Shown piece by piece: positions 1,537-6,589 of a stretch of 6,589 nucleotides of DNA (position 1 is its first letter; every line of letters begins with the position of its first letter). The position numbers were made by a program, and so were the translations under genes. The DNA is from Victivallales bacterium (GTDB taxonomy: Bacteria; Verrucomicrobiota; Lentisphaeria; Oligosphaerales; Oligosphaeraceae). The stretch covers positions 1 to 6,589 of the forward strand of contig JAFYGL010000623.1 in NCBI GenBank assembly GCA_017543165.1, in the 5' to 3' direction. A model generated the notes under the pieces. It was given only the letters and a program-made list of their open reading frames with translations. It made no database searches and had not been told where the DNA came from.

Positions 1537-2631
1537 TTAATCAAGCGTAACTGAATCCAGTTCCTCTTCTTCCTTCTTTGCGTCCTGCAATTTCTTTACC
1601 CATTTCAGCACTTCGGCGACTGGCTCGATAAGGTCGTTTGGTATCAAGTCATCCACCCTGCCCTTCTCCCACAATGCGCGTGCCAGGGGCACATTTTCCA
1701 TTATGGGTATGCCTTCCTCCAGTGCCGTCTCCCTTATTATCTTCGCCACATCGTCGGCACCTGCCACGACGATATATGGAAGCAATGCCTCCTCCACGTT
1801 GTAGCGTATGCCGATTGCCAGATGCGTCGGGTTCGTCACCACCACGTTTGCCTTCTTGGTTGCAGTCTCTGGAGGCGGGCCGTTCAGGATTTCATTGCGG
1901 AAATCACGCTGTGCCTGCTTGACTTCCTGGCTGCCCTCCATTTCCTTGTATTCGCGCTTGACCTCGTCCTTGGTCATCATCATTTCCTTGGTGTAGTTGC
2001 GCCCCTGGAAGAGGGGGTCCACCACTGCAATGACGATGTAGCCCAATGCAGTGTAGTAGGCCAGGCGTTTCATCATCAAGCGAAGGCATGGGAATATGTC
2101 GTCGATAGTGCCATAGCACATGACCAGCAATTCGGGGATGGAGGCAAGTATGATCTTGTATATGAGATACCCCAGGAACGTGACTTTCACCACGTTCTTG
2201 AGGAACTCAAAAAGATTCTTCATGTTGAAGATTTTCTTGGCGCCTTCAACAGGGTTCAGCTTGTCAAGATTTGGCTTCAGTGGTTCAAGGGTGAAGAGGA
2301 AGCCAATCTGGAAAACTTTCGCCGCAATGCCCACCACGGCGGCGGCCAGCACGAAAAGGGCCGTGTACTTGCAGATGAATATGGCCGCCATCTTCGAGCC
2401 TTCGTGAATCGAGGCGACTGGCTTGTCCCCCAGACGCTGTCCCACAAAGGATATCAGCACATGGAAATCCTCAACCAAAAGCACGCAGCTTATTGCCACC
2501 AGGCAGAACATGACTATCAGCAGCGCGGTGGAGACAATGTCCTTGGAGGTGCAGACCTGCCCTTTCTCCCTTGCGTCCCGCAGCTTTTTCGCTGTCGGCA
2601 TCTCAGTTTTTTCGCCGCCTTCGTCTGCCAT
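1537..2631 (-). CDS. sctU: Type III secretion export apparatus switch protein SctU (364 aa)
   Basis: SctU (YscU/FlhB family) is an inner-membrane export-gate component that switches secretion from needle subunits to later substrates after autocleavage. The N terminus has the family signature GEKTEMPTAKKLRDAREKGQ (5-24). Four hydrophobic segments lie at about 31-53, 82-109, 142-165 and 187-207. The linker carries KDEVKREYKEMEG (221-233), typical of non-flagellar SctU. The cytosolic domain has the autocleavage motif NPTH at 267-270, intact, in the context VVVTNPTHLAIGIRY, followed by PLARALWEKG (315-324). Length is normal for the family. The ATG is 6 nt after the sctT stop without a clear SD, consistent with coupling. 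Its partner in the switch, SctP, is encoded at the head of the visible operon. Confidence 0.97.
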   Translation of the reverse strand: MADEGGEKTEMPTAKKLRDAREKGQVCTSKDIVSTALLIVMFCLVAISCVLLVEDFHVLISFVGQRLGDKPVASIHEGSKMAAIFICKYTALFVLAAAVVGIAAKVFQIGFLFTLEPLKPNLDKLNPVEGAKKIFNMKNLFEFLKNVVKVTFLGYLIYKIILASIPELLVMCYGTIDDIFPCLRLMMKRLAYYTALGYIVIAVVDPLFQGRNYTKEMMMTKDEVKREYKEMEGSQEVKQAQRDFRNEILNGPPPETATKKANVVVTNPTHLAIGIRYNVEEALLPYIVVAGADDVAKIIRETALEEGIPIMENVPLARALWEKGRVDDLIPNDLIEPVAEVLKWVKKLQDAKKEEEELDSVTLD

Positions 2632-2637
2632 GCTTGT

Positions 2638-3417
2638 CTATGGGTGCAGCAGTTCCTGCACTGGGGCCAAAATTGCGTTTTCCTTGGTATAAATCAACAT
2701 GTCCATGATGAATGGCAAATAAATGATGAGCATGGCAATGCCCAGGCCAGACTTGACAGGCATGGAGAGGAAGAACACATTCAACTGCGGCGCAGTGCGG
2801 TTCACCAGTCCCAGTCCAAGTGTGGCGATAAACATCACTATGACCACGGGAGCGGCAATCACAATCGTGGTCTTCAGCATTGTATCCAAGGTATTGAGCA
2901 TCACCAAGGGGGCGCCATTTGAAAACACTATGCCTTCTGAGAACACTGGCCATATCTGGTAGCTCTTGTACAATGCGCCAAGAAACACGAATATGATGCC
3001 GCCCACAAAAAACAAAGTGGAAATCAACTGGGTGAAGAAAATGCCCATGGTGGAAACCTGTGTGCCATTCAGAGGCGAATAGACTTCGCCCATGGTCGCG
3101 CCACGCTGGTTGTCTATCAAATTTCCCACATTCTCTCCAATCCAGAATGGGATTGCCGCGAAGAAGCCCAGAATAAAGCCTATCATCGCTTCCTTGAGGG
3201 CAAGCAGCCCAAACATCATGGGTCTTGGCTCGCCAGGCGGCATGCTGCCCAGGACACTTGGTATCATGAAAACAGCGAAGCCCAGCACGGCGGCACGGCG
3301 GGCCACGCCAGGTATCATGGATTCCGTCAGCGCAGGGCATATAGCAAAAGCCCCGCCAATCCTGGCCATGGTCAGAACAGCCGCAAGTATCAGGCGATGG
3401 AAATCAAGGTAGGTCAT
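2638..3417 (-). CDS. sctT: Type III secretion export apparatus protein SctT (259 aa)
   Basis: SctT (YscT/FliR family) forms the export gate with SctR and SctS. The chosen start (MTYLDFHRL) overlaps the sctS stop by one base (TGATG, 3415-3419), giving 259 residues, the usual family size. A longer in-frame reading would overlap almost all of sctS with a non-family, cysteine- and aspartate-rich extension and is rejected. Family features include KEAMIGFILGFFAAIPFW (75-92), followed by ENVGNLIDNQRGA (95-107), and LSMPVKSGLGIAML (217-230). Several hydrophobic segments span about 8-27, 43-57, 67-92, 125-150, 183-205 and 222-244. The gene ends 6 nt before sctU. The sctR-S-T-U order leaves little doubt about identity. 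Confidence 0.95.
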   Translation of the reverse strand: MTYLDFHRLILAAVLTMARIGGAFAICPALTESMIPGVARRAAVLGFAVFMIPSVLGSMPPGEPRPMMFGLLALKEAMIGFILGFFAAIPFWIGENVGNLIDNQRGATMGEVYSPLNGTQVSTMGIFFTQLISTLFFVGGIIFVFLGALYKSYQIWPVFSEGIVFSNGAPLVMLNTLDTMLKTTIVIAAPVVIVMFIATLGLGLVNRTAPQLNVFFLSMPVKSGLGIAMLIIYLPFIMDMLIYTKENAILAPVQELLHP

Positions 3418-3686
3418 CAACGCCCCAGCAATGGAAAATGCTTGAATATGTCCTGGGTGTAAAGCAGAAGCTGGCTCCCCATCCAGGAACTGGCCACCAT
3501 CAACGTAATCGATATGGTTATCAGCTTGACCGCAAAGCCCAGGGTCTGCTCCTGTATCTGTGTAAGCGCCTGCAACAGTGAAACTATCAAACCGACCACA
3601 GTCGCAACTATGATCGGTATCAATGACAACTTCAATATCAGTATCAGACAAGTCTGGGCGTAATCCAACAACTGAGCCTGATTCAT
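3417..3686 (-). CDS. sctS: Type III secretion export apparatus protein SctS (89 aa)
   Basis: SctS (YscS/FliQ family) is a two-helix membrane protein in the export gate, present in several copies around SctR and SctT. Hydrophobic segments lie at about 13-38 and 50-72, joined by the conserved loop SLLQALTQIQEQTLGFAVKL (36-55), which is near-diagnostic for the non-flagellar family. Length is typical (86-90 residues). The ATG at 3684-3686 follows an AGGGAGA Shine-Dalgarno (3694-3700) 7 nt upstream. Unlike the rest of the operon it is not packed against its upstream neighbour: 135 bases containing an inverted repeat separate it from sctR. Its stop overlaps the sctT start by one base. Confidence 0.96.
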   Translation of the reverse strand: MNQAQLLDYAQTCLILILKLSLIPIIVATVVGLIVSLLQALTQIQEQTLGFAVKLITISITLMVASSWMGSQLLLYTQDIFKHFPLLGR

Positions 3687-3701: not shown

Positions 3702-3792
3702 TTTTTTATCCACAGATTTCCACAGATTTTCGCAGATTTCATCCAGAAAAATAACCAGATGTTAATCTGTGATAATCTGTGGATTAAAAAAA
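3702..3792. repeat. A/T-flanked inverted repeat between sctR and sctS
   Basis: CCACAGATTTCCACAGATT (3710-3728) is matched in inverted orientation by AATCTGTGATAATCTGTGG (3764-3782), 17 of 19. The pairing continues outward through TTTTTTAT on the left and ATTAAAAAAA on the right with one extra base. Each arm contains the CCACAGATT-type unit twice, and a further related copy (CGCAGATTT, 3731-3739) lies in the loop. Because the T-run comes first and the A-run last on both strands, this is not a canonical terminator. Similar 'atccacagattt' repeats are, from memory, common between genes in some Verrucomicrobiota and Planctomycetota genomes. It may be a dispersed repeat inserted into the operon, and its RNA hairpin could affect mRNA stability or processing. 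Confidence 0.75.
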
Positions 3793-3821: not shown

Positions 3822-4511
3822 TTAGATGTAGCTTCTCACCAAACCTTGTATCAACTGCGTCCAACCATCCACCATGACAAACAAGAGCAGTTTGAATGGC
3901 AGGGATATTGTGACTGGCGACACCATCATCATACCCATTGCTAGCAGAATATTGCTTACAATGATATCAATTGCAATGAATGGCAAATACACCAGGAATC
4001 CAATCTGGAAGGACTTGGTAAGTTCGCTGACGCAGAAGCTGGGAATCAGGATGTAGAGGCTCTCCTTGTCCACCTTTGCCTCTTCCTGCCCTTCCTGAGC
4101 CCAAAGGCGTTCCGCCGTGCTGACGAAGAACGCCCTTTCCTTCTCGCCAGTCTGCCTGAGGAGCCATTCCTTGAAAGGAATTGCCGCTTTGGCGATGATG
4201 TCTGTTTCATAGAAAGGCTGGTCCTCCGTTGGGGCGGTATGGTTTTTCTGTCGCTCCGCCATAGCCACCCTCTCTGCCTTGATAATGTCCCAGCTTCTAT
4301 TGCAGACAGGCGCCATTATGTAGAATGTGATTATCAGGGCAAGTGCATTTATCACCATGTTCGGAGGGATTGACTGAATGCCAAGCGCGTTTCTGATAAG
4401 TGACATGACAACCACTATCTTGAGATAGCTAGTGGCAATCATTGCCAGAAATGGTACCAGCGAAAGGCCGACCAGCAGTATAATAAGTGCAAATGGATCA
4501 GTCTGGAACAT
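3822..4511 (-). CDS. sctR: Type III secretion export apparatus protein SctR (229 aa)
   Basis: SctR (YscR/FliP family) forms the pentameric core of the export gate in the inner membrane. The start MFQTDPF is chosen because GGAGGAGA (4521-4528) lies 9 nt upstream; it gives 229 residues without the cleaved signal peptide of flagellar FliP. The N-terminal region has ATSYLKIVVV (26-35), RNALGIQSIPPNMV (40-53) and YIMAPV (64-69). A variable hydrophilic periplasmic loop lies at about 71-150. The C-terminal half has VSELTKSFQIGFLVYLPF (161-178), NILLAMGMMMVSPVTISLPF (187-206) and VDGWTQL (214-220). It starts 1 nt after the sctQ stop. The loop is slightly longer than I recall for YscR. A 17-residue upstream extension to 4562 lacks family similarity and is rejected. 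Confidence 0.96.
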   Translation of the reverse strand: MFQTDPFALIILLVGLSLVPFLAMIATSYLKIVVVMSLIRNALGIQSIPPNMVINALALIITFYIMAPVCNRSWDIIKAERVAMAERQKNHTAPTEDQPFYETDIIAKAAIPFKEWLLRQTGEKERAFFVSTAERLWAQEGQEEAKVDKESLYILIPSFCVSELTKSFQIGFLVYLPFIAIDIIVSNILLAMGMMMVSPVTISLPFKLLLFVMVDGWTQLIQGLVRSYI

Positions 4512-4512
4512 T

Positions 4513-5349
4513 TCAGAGTATCTCCTCCAATGCAAAGGCAGGCTGCTGCACCAGGGTGGCAATACGCCCCCTGGCGAGTATTTTGCCTCTTCTCATCAAG
4601 ATCAGTTCATTTGGCTTGGGTATTTCAGGCAATTCCTCCGAGGCGAACTGCCCGAAAGTAATCTGCATGGTTTCTGGGGCGCAGATTTGGAGCATCTCGC
4701 TCTTCTGGTCCTCGACCTGCCATGTTGGCTGGGAGGAGCCAATTTCAGGCAACATGAGATAATCGCCAGCGGCAAGCCCCGCTATTTCCTCTTCCTCCAA
4801 TGTGAAGGAGGCATAGACCGCCCTGGCCGCCCGCTCCATTGAAAGAATGGAATCATGGTTCAAATCGATGTACTTCAGCAAGCCAAGTGTGCGGACCATG
4901 TCCGTGTCCACTTTCAGCACAAACGAAACAATAGGCTTGCCATTCTGACCAATGAGTTCGAATCCAGTTGTGCCTTCCCTGTTTTCCGCAGGCGCCACGT
5001 CCAGGACATTCAGCTGGCGCCTCAATGCGTTCTCCAATATCTGGAACAATGGTCCGCACTCCTTCTCCACCAAAGCCAGTTTAAGCGCATCAGGCAGATT
5101 GTTCTTCACATCCCATAGCGTATGCAAATCAGGGAAGGCCTCCCTGTTGCAAATGCCAAGGAAATTCTCTTCATCGTCAAGGCGCACCGATATTCCCAGC
5201 ACATCGCGGAACGTGACGCCTGAGCGACGCAGCACACAGGGAGTATCCTTCCAGCGCACGGGCATTGCCCAGGCTGGCGAATCAAATATTGTCCCAGCGC
5301 CCGCCCTCTCCCAGGACGGCCATTTCTGCAACAATTCAAACGCGTTCAT
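4513..5349 (-). CDS. sctQ: SctQ-like sorting-platform (C-ring) protein, short form (278 aa)
   Basis: SctQ (YscQ/FliMN-type SpoA protein) forms the cytosolic platform that sorts substrates for export. Sequence evidence is moderate. Residues about 170-202 (ARAVYASFTLEEEEIAGLAAG then DYLMLPEI) resemble the SpoA pattern of a helix followed by L-x-x-G-D-x-L-x-L. The end (GKILARGRIATLVQQPAFAL, 255-274) resembles the last strands of a SpoA fold. The N-terminal half has no motif I recognise. I can identify one SpoA domain with reasonable confidence but not a clear second. Identity rests largely on its place between sctP and sctR. The ATG is 14 nt inside the sctP end, after an AAGGGA-like site. M218 could start a 61-residue C-terminal product, but its upstream sequence is a weak ribosome site. 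Confidence 0.82.
   Translation of the reverse strand: MNAFELLQKWPSWERAGAGTIFDSPAWAMPVRWKDTPCVLRRSGVTFRDVLGISVRLDDEENFLGICNREAFPDLHTLWDVKNNLPDALKLALVEKECGPLFQILENALRRQLNVLDVAPAENREGTTGFELIGQNGKPIVSFVLKVDTDMVRTLGLLKYIDLNHDSILSMERAARAVYASFTLEEEEIAGLAAGDYLMLPEIGSSQPTWQVEDQKSEMLQICAPETMQITFGQFASEELPEIPKPNELILMRRGKILARGRIATLVQQPAFALEEIL
4521..4528 (-). promoter_or_regulatory. Shine-Dalgarno of sctR inside the sctQ 3' end
   Basis: GGAGGAGA on the minus strand, ending 9 nt before the sctR ATG at 4511 and lying within the last codons of sctQ. It fixes the sctR start and excludes the longer upstream reading. Confidence 0.8.
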
Positions 5350-6589
5350 TATTCTTTCCCTTCTTGACGGTAACAGCTATCTGGTAATTGTGTATGCTGC
5401 CAGCCAAATGCTGCTCGAATTGAGTTATGTTGCTCTCAAGCACACGCTGTGCCTCTGAAGTGGCAGGCTGGAATGTGACTGTCATCGTCTTGCCGCTGGC
5501 AACCAAATGCACCACCGTGCCATCCAGCATGTCAGGCTTCAACTGTATCCTGACCTCGCCCTGCCCGCGTATCTCGGAGAACGAGGCATGTATGGTAGCG
5601 CATACCTTGTCCACCATCTCAACCAGATTCTGCGTCCTTGCCGTGGCTGCCACATTCATATCATTGGAAACAGAGGTCACGCCCTGTGGCGCCGCAGCAG
5701 GGGCCGAATTAGGCTGTATCTGCTGTGGCATTGCCACCTGCGGCTGCACAATTACCGTATCCTCGTCAATGTTGTCATCTTCTTCCAATGCGACGCCCGC
5801 CGCTGGCGCCGTGCCTTTTTCAGTGACCGCATTGGCTTCCTGCATCTTGCCAGAGGCAAGCTGCTCCGTGGAAGACGGCCTGGCAACAGGTGTTTCCTGT
5901 GTTTCTGGAACGGTGTTTGCCACTGGCGTCTCAATTACGACATTTGCGACAGGAGCGGCGGCATTCTGGTCAGGCGTCATCACCACAGGCGCAGCTGTAT
6001 TTTCTTGAGCATCAACACTGACAGGTGTTGCGGGAGCAATTGTCGCCATTGGCGTTGCCTGTGCAACGGGAGTTTCCAGTGCAATTGTCGTCGTTGCGGG
6101 GGCAGCGAATGCGATGGCGCTTGATTCTGGGTTTGAGCCAACTACTGGCGATGGAGCATTGGAAACAACTGTTATTTCTGGTGCTGGAACACTAGCTTGT
6201 GGAACAGCTGTTTTTGGCGCTTCGGTGACAACATTCGCAACTGGTGCTTCCGAAACCACACTCACAACAGGTGTGCCTGCAACTTCAGGCATTACTGCAA
6301 CTTCAGGGACTTCCGCAACAGCAGAAGAAACAGGAGCCACAGGCGCTGATGTGGTTACAGGCGCCGGTGTGGTTACTGGCGCTAATGTGGTTACTGGCGC
6401 TAATGTGGTGCTCGGAGCAACTGTTTCAAATGGAGCGACGCTTATTGAGGAAGCCGCTGGAACGTCTGGCCTGGCTTGAACCACTGGAGCCTCTGGCATT
6501 GCTGCTGATGTTGCAACGACTGGAGCCTCTGGCATTGCTGCTGATGTTGCAACGACTGGAGCCTCTGGCATTGCTGCTGATGTTGCAAC
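5336..6589 (-). CDS. sctP: SctP-type needle-length control / FliK-like protein, 5' partial (at least 417 aa)
   Basis: The frame is open to the right edge, so the start is outside the window. The N-terminal 250 or so visible residues are low-complexity, rich in Ala, Val, Pro and Thr, with almost no hydrophobic core. They begin with exact 12-residue repeats (MPEAPVVATSAA) and then APVTT-type repeats. An acidic patch (EEDDNIDED) lies about 150 residues from the end. The last 100 residues form a FliK/SctP-like domain: GEVRIQLKPDMLDGTVVHLV, then TMTVTFQPATSEAQRVLESN, then FEQHLAG. In SctP proteins this C-terminal domain switches SctU specificity, while the extended N-terminal part acts as a ruler during needle assembly. 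Its stop overlaps the sctQ start by 14 nt. Position upstream of sctQ supports the call. An unusually long or repetitive ruler is the notable oddity. Confidence 0.88.
   Translation of the reverse strand, partial: VATSAAMPEAPVVATSAAMPEAPVVATSAAMPEAPVVQARPDVPAASSISVAPFETVAPSTTLAPVTTLAPVTTPAPVTTSAPVAPVSSAVAEVPEVAVMPEVAGTPVVSVVSEAPVANVVTEAPKTAVPQASVPAPEITVVSNAPSPVVGSNPESSAIAFAAPATTTIALETPVAQATPMATIAPATPVSVDAQENTAAPVVMTPDQNAAAPVANVVIETPVANTVPETQETPVARPSSTEQLASGKMQEANAVTEKGTAPAAGVALEEDDNIDEDTVIVQPQVAMPQQIQPNSAPAAAPQGVTSVSNDMNVAATARTQNLVEMVDKVCATIHASFSEIRGQGEVRIQLKPDMLDGTVVHLVASGKTMTVTFQPATSEAQRVLESNITQFEQHLAGSIHNYQIAVTVKKGKNNERV
6342..6431 (-). repeat. Degenerate 18-bp tandem repeat in sctP (APVTT-type)
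   Basis: Units begin at 6342, 6360, 6378, 6396 and, more diverged, 6414, each starting GGCGC or GGAGC, with GTGGTTAC near the end in the best copies. They encode six-residue units such as TTLAPV, TTPAPV and TTSAPV. The period is in frame, so unit gain or loss would change protein length without a frameshift. Confidence 0.8.
6483..6589 (-). repeat. Exact 36-bp tandem repeat in sctP, running off the window
   Basis: Three consecutive units start at 6483, 6519 and 6555; the last is cut by the window end at 35 of 36 bases. The visible copies are identical at nucleotide level and encode MPEAPVVATSAA. Perfect identity points to recent expansion or ongoing slippage. The period is a multiple of three, so copy-number change preserves the frame and alters the length of the SctP N-terminal region. 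Confidence 0.93.

Follow-up and report, generated by a model that had tools for sequence, protein, structure and literature searches.

The stretch of DNA analysed here (the window) is 6,589 nucleotides long and is probably the whole of contig JAFYGL010000623.1, from assembly GCA_017543165.1 of a Victivallales bacterium, an uncultured rumen organism. One end of it carries the 3' part of a gene that we assign to sctP, the ruler and switch gene of non-flagellar type III secretion systems, and tandem repeats occupy the middle of this gene. The gene, its domain and its repeats are placed as follows.

5336..6589, minus strand: sctP, 3' part, 417 codons plus stop; the start codon and the N-terminal block lie beyond the contig
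5336..5704, minus strand: C-terminal substrate-specificity-switch (T3S4/HpaP/FliK_C) domain of SctP, 122 residues
6482..6589, minus strand: 36-bp array of three units (12 residues each, APVVATSAAMPE in rotation), in frame and reaching the contig edge
6339..6410, minus strand: 18-bp array of four units (6 residues each, TTLAPV/TTPAPV/TTSAPV), seen by eye and with Tandem Repeats Finder (TRF)
6279..6319, minus strand: degenerate 18-bp repeat, 2.3 copies with 82% matches, from repeat finding

A preliminary description of this DNA had reported three identical 36-bp units at the edge. The array and the edge are real, but only two of the units are identical (6554-6589 and 6518-6553); the third (6482-6517) departs from them at a single base, 6482, and the 36 bases beyond it (6446-6481) at 18. 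TRF placed the array at 6479-6589, with 3.1 copies, 98% matches and a score of 215. The 12-codon unit as read in the printed frame is VATSAAMPEAPV, and three such units open the contig in coding order, followed after about 70 bases by the 18-bp array (TRF 3.9 copies, 88% matches). The nearby 18-bp units of the earlier account were thus found, and both unit sizes are, as it said, multiples of three within one SctP-type minus-strand frame, open from the edge at 6589 to the stop at 5336. The longest exact self-match in the window sctP is 71 nt, at a shift of 36; it was at most 13 nt after shuffling of codon order (n=200) and at most 26 nt in protein-preserving shuffles that re-dealt synonymous codons (n=500). 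A chance or low-complexity origin of the repeats was therefore ruled out. Silent sites, too, agree between the copies, more closely than the protein demands, which points to recent duplication or homogenisation. Because the array reaches the contig edge, its copy number of 36-bp units is a lower bound; the database protein of the window (P0001), whose longest contig, at 6589, is as long as the window, has only 318 of the 417 residues of the frame, so that its gene call omits the 36-bp array.

The assignment to sctP is supported by domain profiles, a structure prediction and gene order. HpaP (PF09483) was the best Pfam family for the window protein, above its gathering score, and the predicted model of the C-terminal domain had as its best structure match the switch domain of Pseudomonas aeruginosa PscP (PDB 5cuk; 9% identity over the aligned part). 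The domain also matched the FliK structure 2rrl by profile (E 0.0099), and Flg_hook (PF02120) fell below its cut-off with the whole frame and above it with the isolated domain (31.2 bits). The relation to the length-control families that had been suggested beforehand, that of a FliK/SctP-type protein, was thereby upheld. The gene lies between sctO and sctQ, the sctO side being seen in relatives, in an injectisome operon whose SctU carries an NPTH motif.

We surveyed 80 loci together with the window, and 70 of them had the SctP C-terminal domain; of the 11 loci without a match, five end before sctP and in six no SctQ was found beside SctR. One of the 70, L080, is from Endozoicomonas (250 aa, no array), and the others come from bins of gut and rumen that are untitled or titled Lentisphaerae, Victivallales, Kiritimatiellae or Verrucomicrobia. 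Tandem arrays (period at least 15, score at least 80) were present in 47 of the 70 SctP loci, or 47 of 69 without L080; each neighbouring gene had at most one. The top arrays of these 47 loci showed 33 different periods, from 15 to 483 bp and all multiples of three, the commonest being 36 bp (seven arrays). Without L080, the 31 complete sctP frames ran from 260 to 1262 aa stop to stop, a crude measure that overstates true protein lengths. The pooled SctP middles consist to about half of valine, alanine and proline, with proline at about 15%. In four close loci, whose SctR proteins are 95.6-98.3% identical, the SctP frames were 971, 816, 663 and 645 aa (962, 805, 650 and 623 aa from the first methionine), and SctU was 381 aa in each. 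Close kin thus encode rulers of very different lengths, and relatives differ greatly both in the number of repeats and in the overall size of SctP.

Length variation was followed further in database proteins with near-identical ends. The C-terminal part of protein P0028, used as a query, matched 230 proteins; the families were drawn from the 120 listed and from earlier matches (142 proteins grouped), and the counts in this paragraph hold among the matches listed. Family 1 comprises at least 66 proteins of 326-641 aa with the common start MTTIPSIEPAT. Within it, 23 proteins have exactly the same last 110 residues, and all 23 differ in length (331-609 aa); P0079, P0081 and P0087 share this tail without the common N-terminus and were excluded from the original 26, as their starts may be mis-called. 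P0064 has a different tail end (ungapped tail identity 4.5%). Length tracks the count of one module (r=0.89). Both anchors were present in 63 of the 66 proteins, the three lacking one being left out of the block measurement: the N block was 84 or 99 residues, the C block 121 in 62 proteins and 129 in one, and the middle 121-421. In family 2 (nine proteins, 382-467 aa), the N blocks measure 99-100 residues, every C block has 162 and the middles cover 121-205; the lengths 419, 431, 443, 455 and 467 rise in steps of 12, and 382, 411 and 415 fall outside this series. Length variation in the relatives is therefore confined to the middle, and the N and C blocks are nearly fixed. Judged by tail identity, each family would come from a single species or very few.

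The closest genome locus, L001, is Victivallales-titled and comes from goat rumen; its SctR is 95% alike to that of the window. The C-terminal domains of the two SctP proteins are 93% identical, and their 36-bp units differ at 13 of 36 bases. Within the arrays, neighbouring units show no differences between the first two in the window; in L001 there are 0 and 0 among the first three and 8 to the fourth. As judged from this alignment, the comparison shows that the 36-bp unit changed as a whole between the two. In the 18-bp array (6339-6410), the window has 12 residues, worth two units, where the alignment with L001 has a gap. Copy number thus differs from one sister species to another and from one near-identical database protein to the next, as is expected of a contingency locus. 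The contingency-type mechanism proposed beforehand, for which copy number would also have to switch inside a clone, holds to this extent only: since the 36- and 18-bp units and all 47 top arrays are multiples of three, on/off phase variation by frameshift was rejected, and the repeat variation is at most a length dial.

The genes beside sctP are of the injectisome type. In the window they are arranged as follows.

4513..5349, minus strand: sctQ, so called from its position; neither Pfam nor NCBIfam gave a match above cut-off
3822..4523, minus strand: sctR (TIGR01102, 248.6 bits; cut-off 208.6)
3417..3686, minus strand: sctS (TIGR01403, 99.4; cut-off 76.5)
2638..3417, minus strand: sctT (TIGR01401, 227.1; cut-off 163.05)
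1537..2631, minus strand: sctU, the switch partner of SctP, with NPTH in its translation (TIGR01404, 376.3; cut-off 358)

The NPTH motif in SctU is the autocleavage site (PMC5073101). As the protein in the sctQ position has no match above cut-off, standard annotation may miss sctQ. The sctO side of sctP was seen in relatives: in genome G002, sctN and sctO precede the 5' piece of sctP (by family match) and the operon also carries sctD and sctI, and in G001 the frames before the 5' piece resemble the sctN and sctO of G002 by look alone. A gene for a sigma factor of the extracytoplasmic function (ECF) type lies directly after sctU on the same strand (1030-1530) and is a candidate regulator of the operon; it is followed by an 85-aa reading frame (753-1010) that matched neither Pfam nor NCBIfam. 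An inverted repeat lies between sctS and sctR (3702-3790), built of TCCACAGATT/AATCTGTGGA units with 27-nt arms that are 89% complementary; it is possibly an attenuator or a small repeat element inside the operon. Near the other end of the window, a 181-bp element (21-201) has inverted arms of 63 nt (21-83 and 139-201, 87% complementary), and the fold of positions 15-210 as single-stranded DNA is much better than that of shuffled sequence (z -10.7). It has 27 full or partial matches in G001 and none in G002; the G001 matches suggest a dispersed element resembling miniature inverted-repeat transposable elements (MITE) or repetitive extragenic palindromes (REP).

In our interpretation, the repeats probably form the elastic middle of SctP, and their units would add increments to the needle. 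Slipped-strand replication or recombination between direct repeats would add or remove whole in-frame units of 12 and 6 residues, changing the middle but hardly the N-terminal block or the C-terminal switch domain. Needle growth would end once the stretched SctP spans the needle and its C-terminal domain reaches SctU, so that each 36-bp unit would lengthen the needle by a set amount. According to the published ruler model, the N-terminus makes contact with the needle tip or subunits, and the C-terminal domain reaches SctU once the needle is long enough, which ends its growth (PMC5073101, PMC4831731). Fixed ends with a free middle are what this model predicts. In Yersinia, the slope is about 0.19 nm of needle per residue of YscP. 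If that slope applied here, a 36-bp unit would be worth about 2.3 nm and the range of 331-609 aa about 53 nm, both being uncertain estimates.

Several points weigh against this interpretation. The slope may not transfer, since the pooled middles contain about 15% proline and YscP is reported to be helical while measuring (PMC5073101). In this phylum, the role of SctP as a ruler is a prediction from genes; the window SctP scored 14.4 bits with the YscP model TIGR02514 (cut-off 76.5), and the needle gene product SctF of G002 was found by Pfam only below its cut-off (23.6 vs 29.4). In the four close loci, SctQ (354, 354, 290 and 305 aa) and SctN (490, 484, 660 and 481 aa) also vary stop to stop. 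The window lacks the N-terminal part of SctP, and two protein searches with its SctP returned no other strains of its species, yielding the window itself and then relatives at 63% identity or less; in one of them, scoring was limited to the 7997 candidates with the most words in common. The members of families 1 and 2 are database proteins that lack DNA context. Family 2 and the C-terminal domain of the window are about 42% alike, and among the loci the best match to family 1 is L060 (67% over 108 residues) and the best to family 2 is L043 (77% over 77). The genome of family 1 was not among the 114 genomes of the family of G030, of which 64 gave a match, the best at 67%, so that we infer its operon position. 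Since the database was clustered at 90% identity, distinct lengths are favoured in what it lists, and length frequencies cannot therefore be read from the families. Finally, short-read assembly may mis-count repeats.

The last point raises the question of whether the repeat numbers seen where contigs end, or from one database protein to another, are a product of short-read assembly. The window and L001 end inside the 36-bp array at aligned places, L002 ends inside a repeat, and in the bins of L001 and L002 another contig holds a 5' sctP piece ending in the same repeat at its own edge (G001 C97, 406 aa from the likely start; G002 C16, 267 aa). A contig end falls inside the sctP frame in 36 of the 80 loci; L043 was dropped from this count, and from that of edges in repeats, as its left end marks the limit of the 6-kb flank and not of a contig. 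Contig ends 900-3000 nt from sctR lie on the sctP side in 33 cases vs 10 on the other (80 loci, p=0.0006). Real repeats, however, cause such breaks. An excess of edges in repeats over random sctP points was not supported (20 of 37 edges, from the 36 loci and the window, vs 135 of 320 positions drawn in complete sctP frames; p=0.22). Several length variants occur on long contigs, whatever the place of the gene on them (P0135, 170 kb; P0137, 93 kb; P0083, 205 kb; P0119, 145 kb), and in the sequences inspected the repeat copies differ by substitutions. A stray assembly error, which the preliminary description had named as a danger, is unlikely in the window because L001, which was assembled separately, carries a 36-bp array of its own, with a different unit, at the corresponding position; we regard an artefact as the source of the variation as very improbable. 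The 36-bp arrays at two contig edges of one bin, L097 and L001, are not built of quite the same DNA units (92% match); the break may therefore stem from a mixture of variants in the population sampled. P0008, from a 2295-bp contig, joins an SctP C-terminal domain to an unrelated repeat-rich N-terminal half and is likely a chimeric assembly.

It could also be that the middle is a neutral spacer, a tolerant low-complexity linker drifting by slippage in a system whose needle length is not set by SctP or hardly matters. Such drift would fit unit sizes and sequences that are not conserved (33 periods in 47 arrays; 13 of 36 bases between the window and L001), middles built to about half of three residues, and the broad spread of family 1 lengths with no single settled value. 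However, the N and C blocks are fixed nearly to the residue while the middle varies, and the length of the corresponding protein does set needle length in Yersinia (PMC3469391, PMC4831731); we consider this explanation rather unlikely. That the gene encodes the flagellar hook-length protein FliK, and no injectisome ruler, is extremely improbable. The Flg_hook match, above cut-off as a domain only, and two listed database entries named FliK speak for it, but in the window SctR, SctS, SctT and SctU score above the cut-offs of the injectisome equivalogs and below those of the flagellar families (fliP 195.6 < 217.45, fliQ 78.4 < 88.9, fliR 130.2 < 168.6, flhB 295.3 < 349.25), on which ground the flagellar reading was rejected; G002 has sctD, sctI and sctO in the same operon, and the best structure match is PscP.

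The C-terminal domain of FliK (PDB 2rrl, PF02120) is related to that of the window SctP, although the operon here is of the injectisome type. HpaP/HpaC (PF09483) is the best Pfam family of the window protein, which, in contrast to the short HpaP/HpaC proteins, has a long repeat middle. The closest parallel is YscP of Y. enterocolitica, likewise an injectisome ruler whose strain lengths differ by repeat number: PMC3469391 gives 452, 515 and 538 aa by strain, repeat motifs that are 14, 25 and 46 aa long, and a needle length linear in YscP length. Needles measure 41 nm in Y. pestis and 58 nm in Y. enterocolitica (PMC5073101). The statement in the earlier account that YscP length sets needle length in Yersinia is therefore in print (PMC3469391), and with it the mechanism there proposed was already known. 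Unlike YscP, the proteins described here have DNA tandem arrays of many unit sizes, middles rich in valine, alanine and proline, and a wider range (260-1262 aa stop to stop in the clade; 326-641 aa among the listed matches of family 1). As far as the literature searched goes, what is new is the clade, the DNA arrays, their extent, and the lack of a common length among proteins with identical switch domains.

In a sheep rumen survey, type III genes tracked methane yield and came mostly from unidentified bacteria, and SctF and SctP were at very low levels in counts based on KEGG (Kamke et al., PMC5549432). This gap may be explained by an SctP that in this clade is built of repeats and often cut by contig ends, and that in the window misses the YscP model, and by an SctF that in G002, the one looked at, falls below the Pfam cut-off.

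To our knowledge, most work on length control by rulers has used engineered rulers and a small number of Yersinia strains. Dozens of natural rulers that are almost alike at their ends but differ in the middle make the ruler model, and any selection on needle length, testable by sequencing and microscopy alone. We tentatively propose, as a possibility short of an even chance, that rumen Victivallales and Kiritimatiellae carry a fast-turning repeat ruler giving a series of ruler lengths, and with it of needle lengths, in populations of one species, a heritable dial that would fit needles to varying target surfaces. If so, these targets may be protozoa, fungi, other bacteria or the host epithelium.
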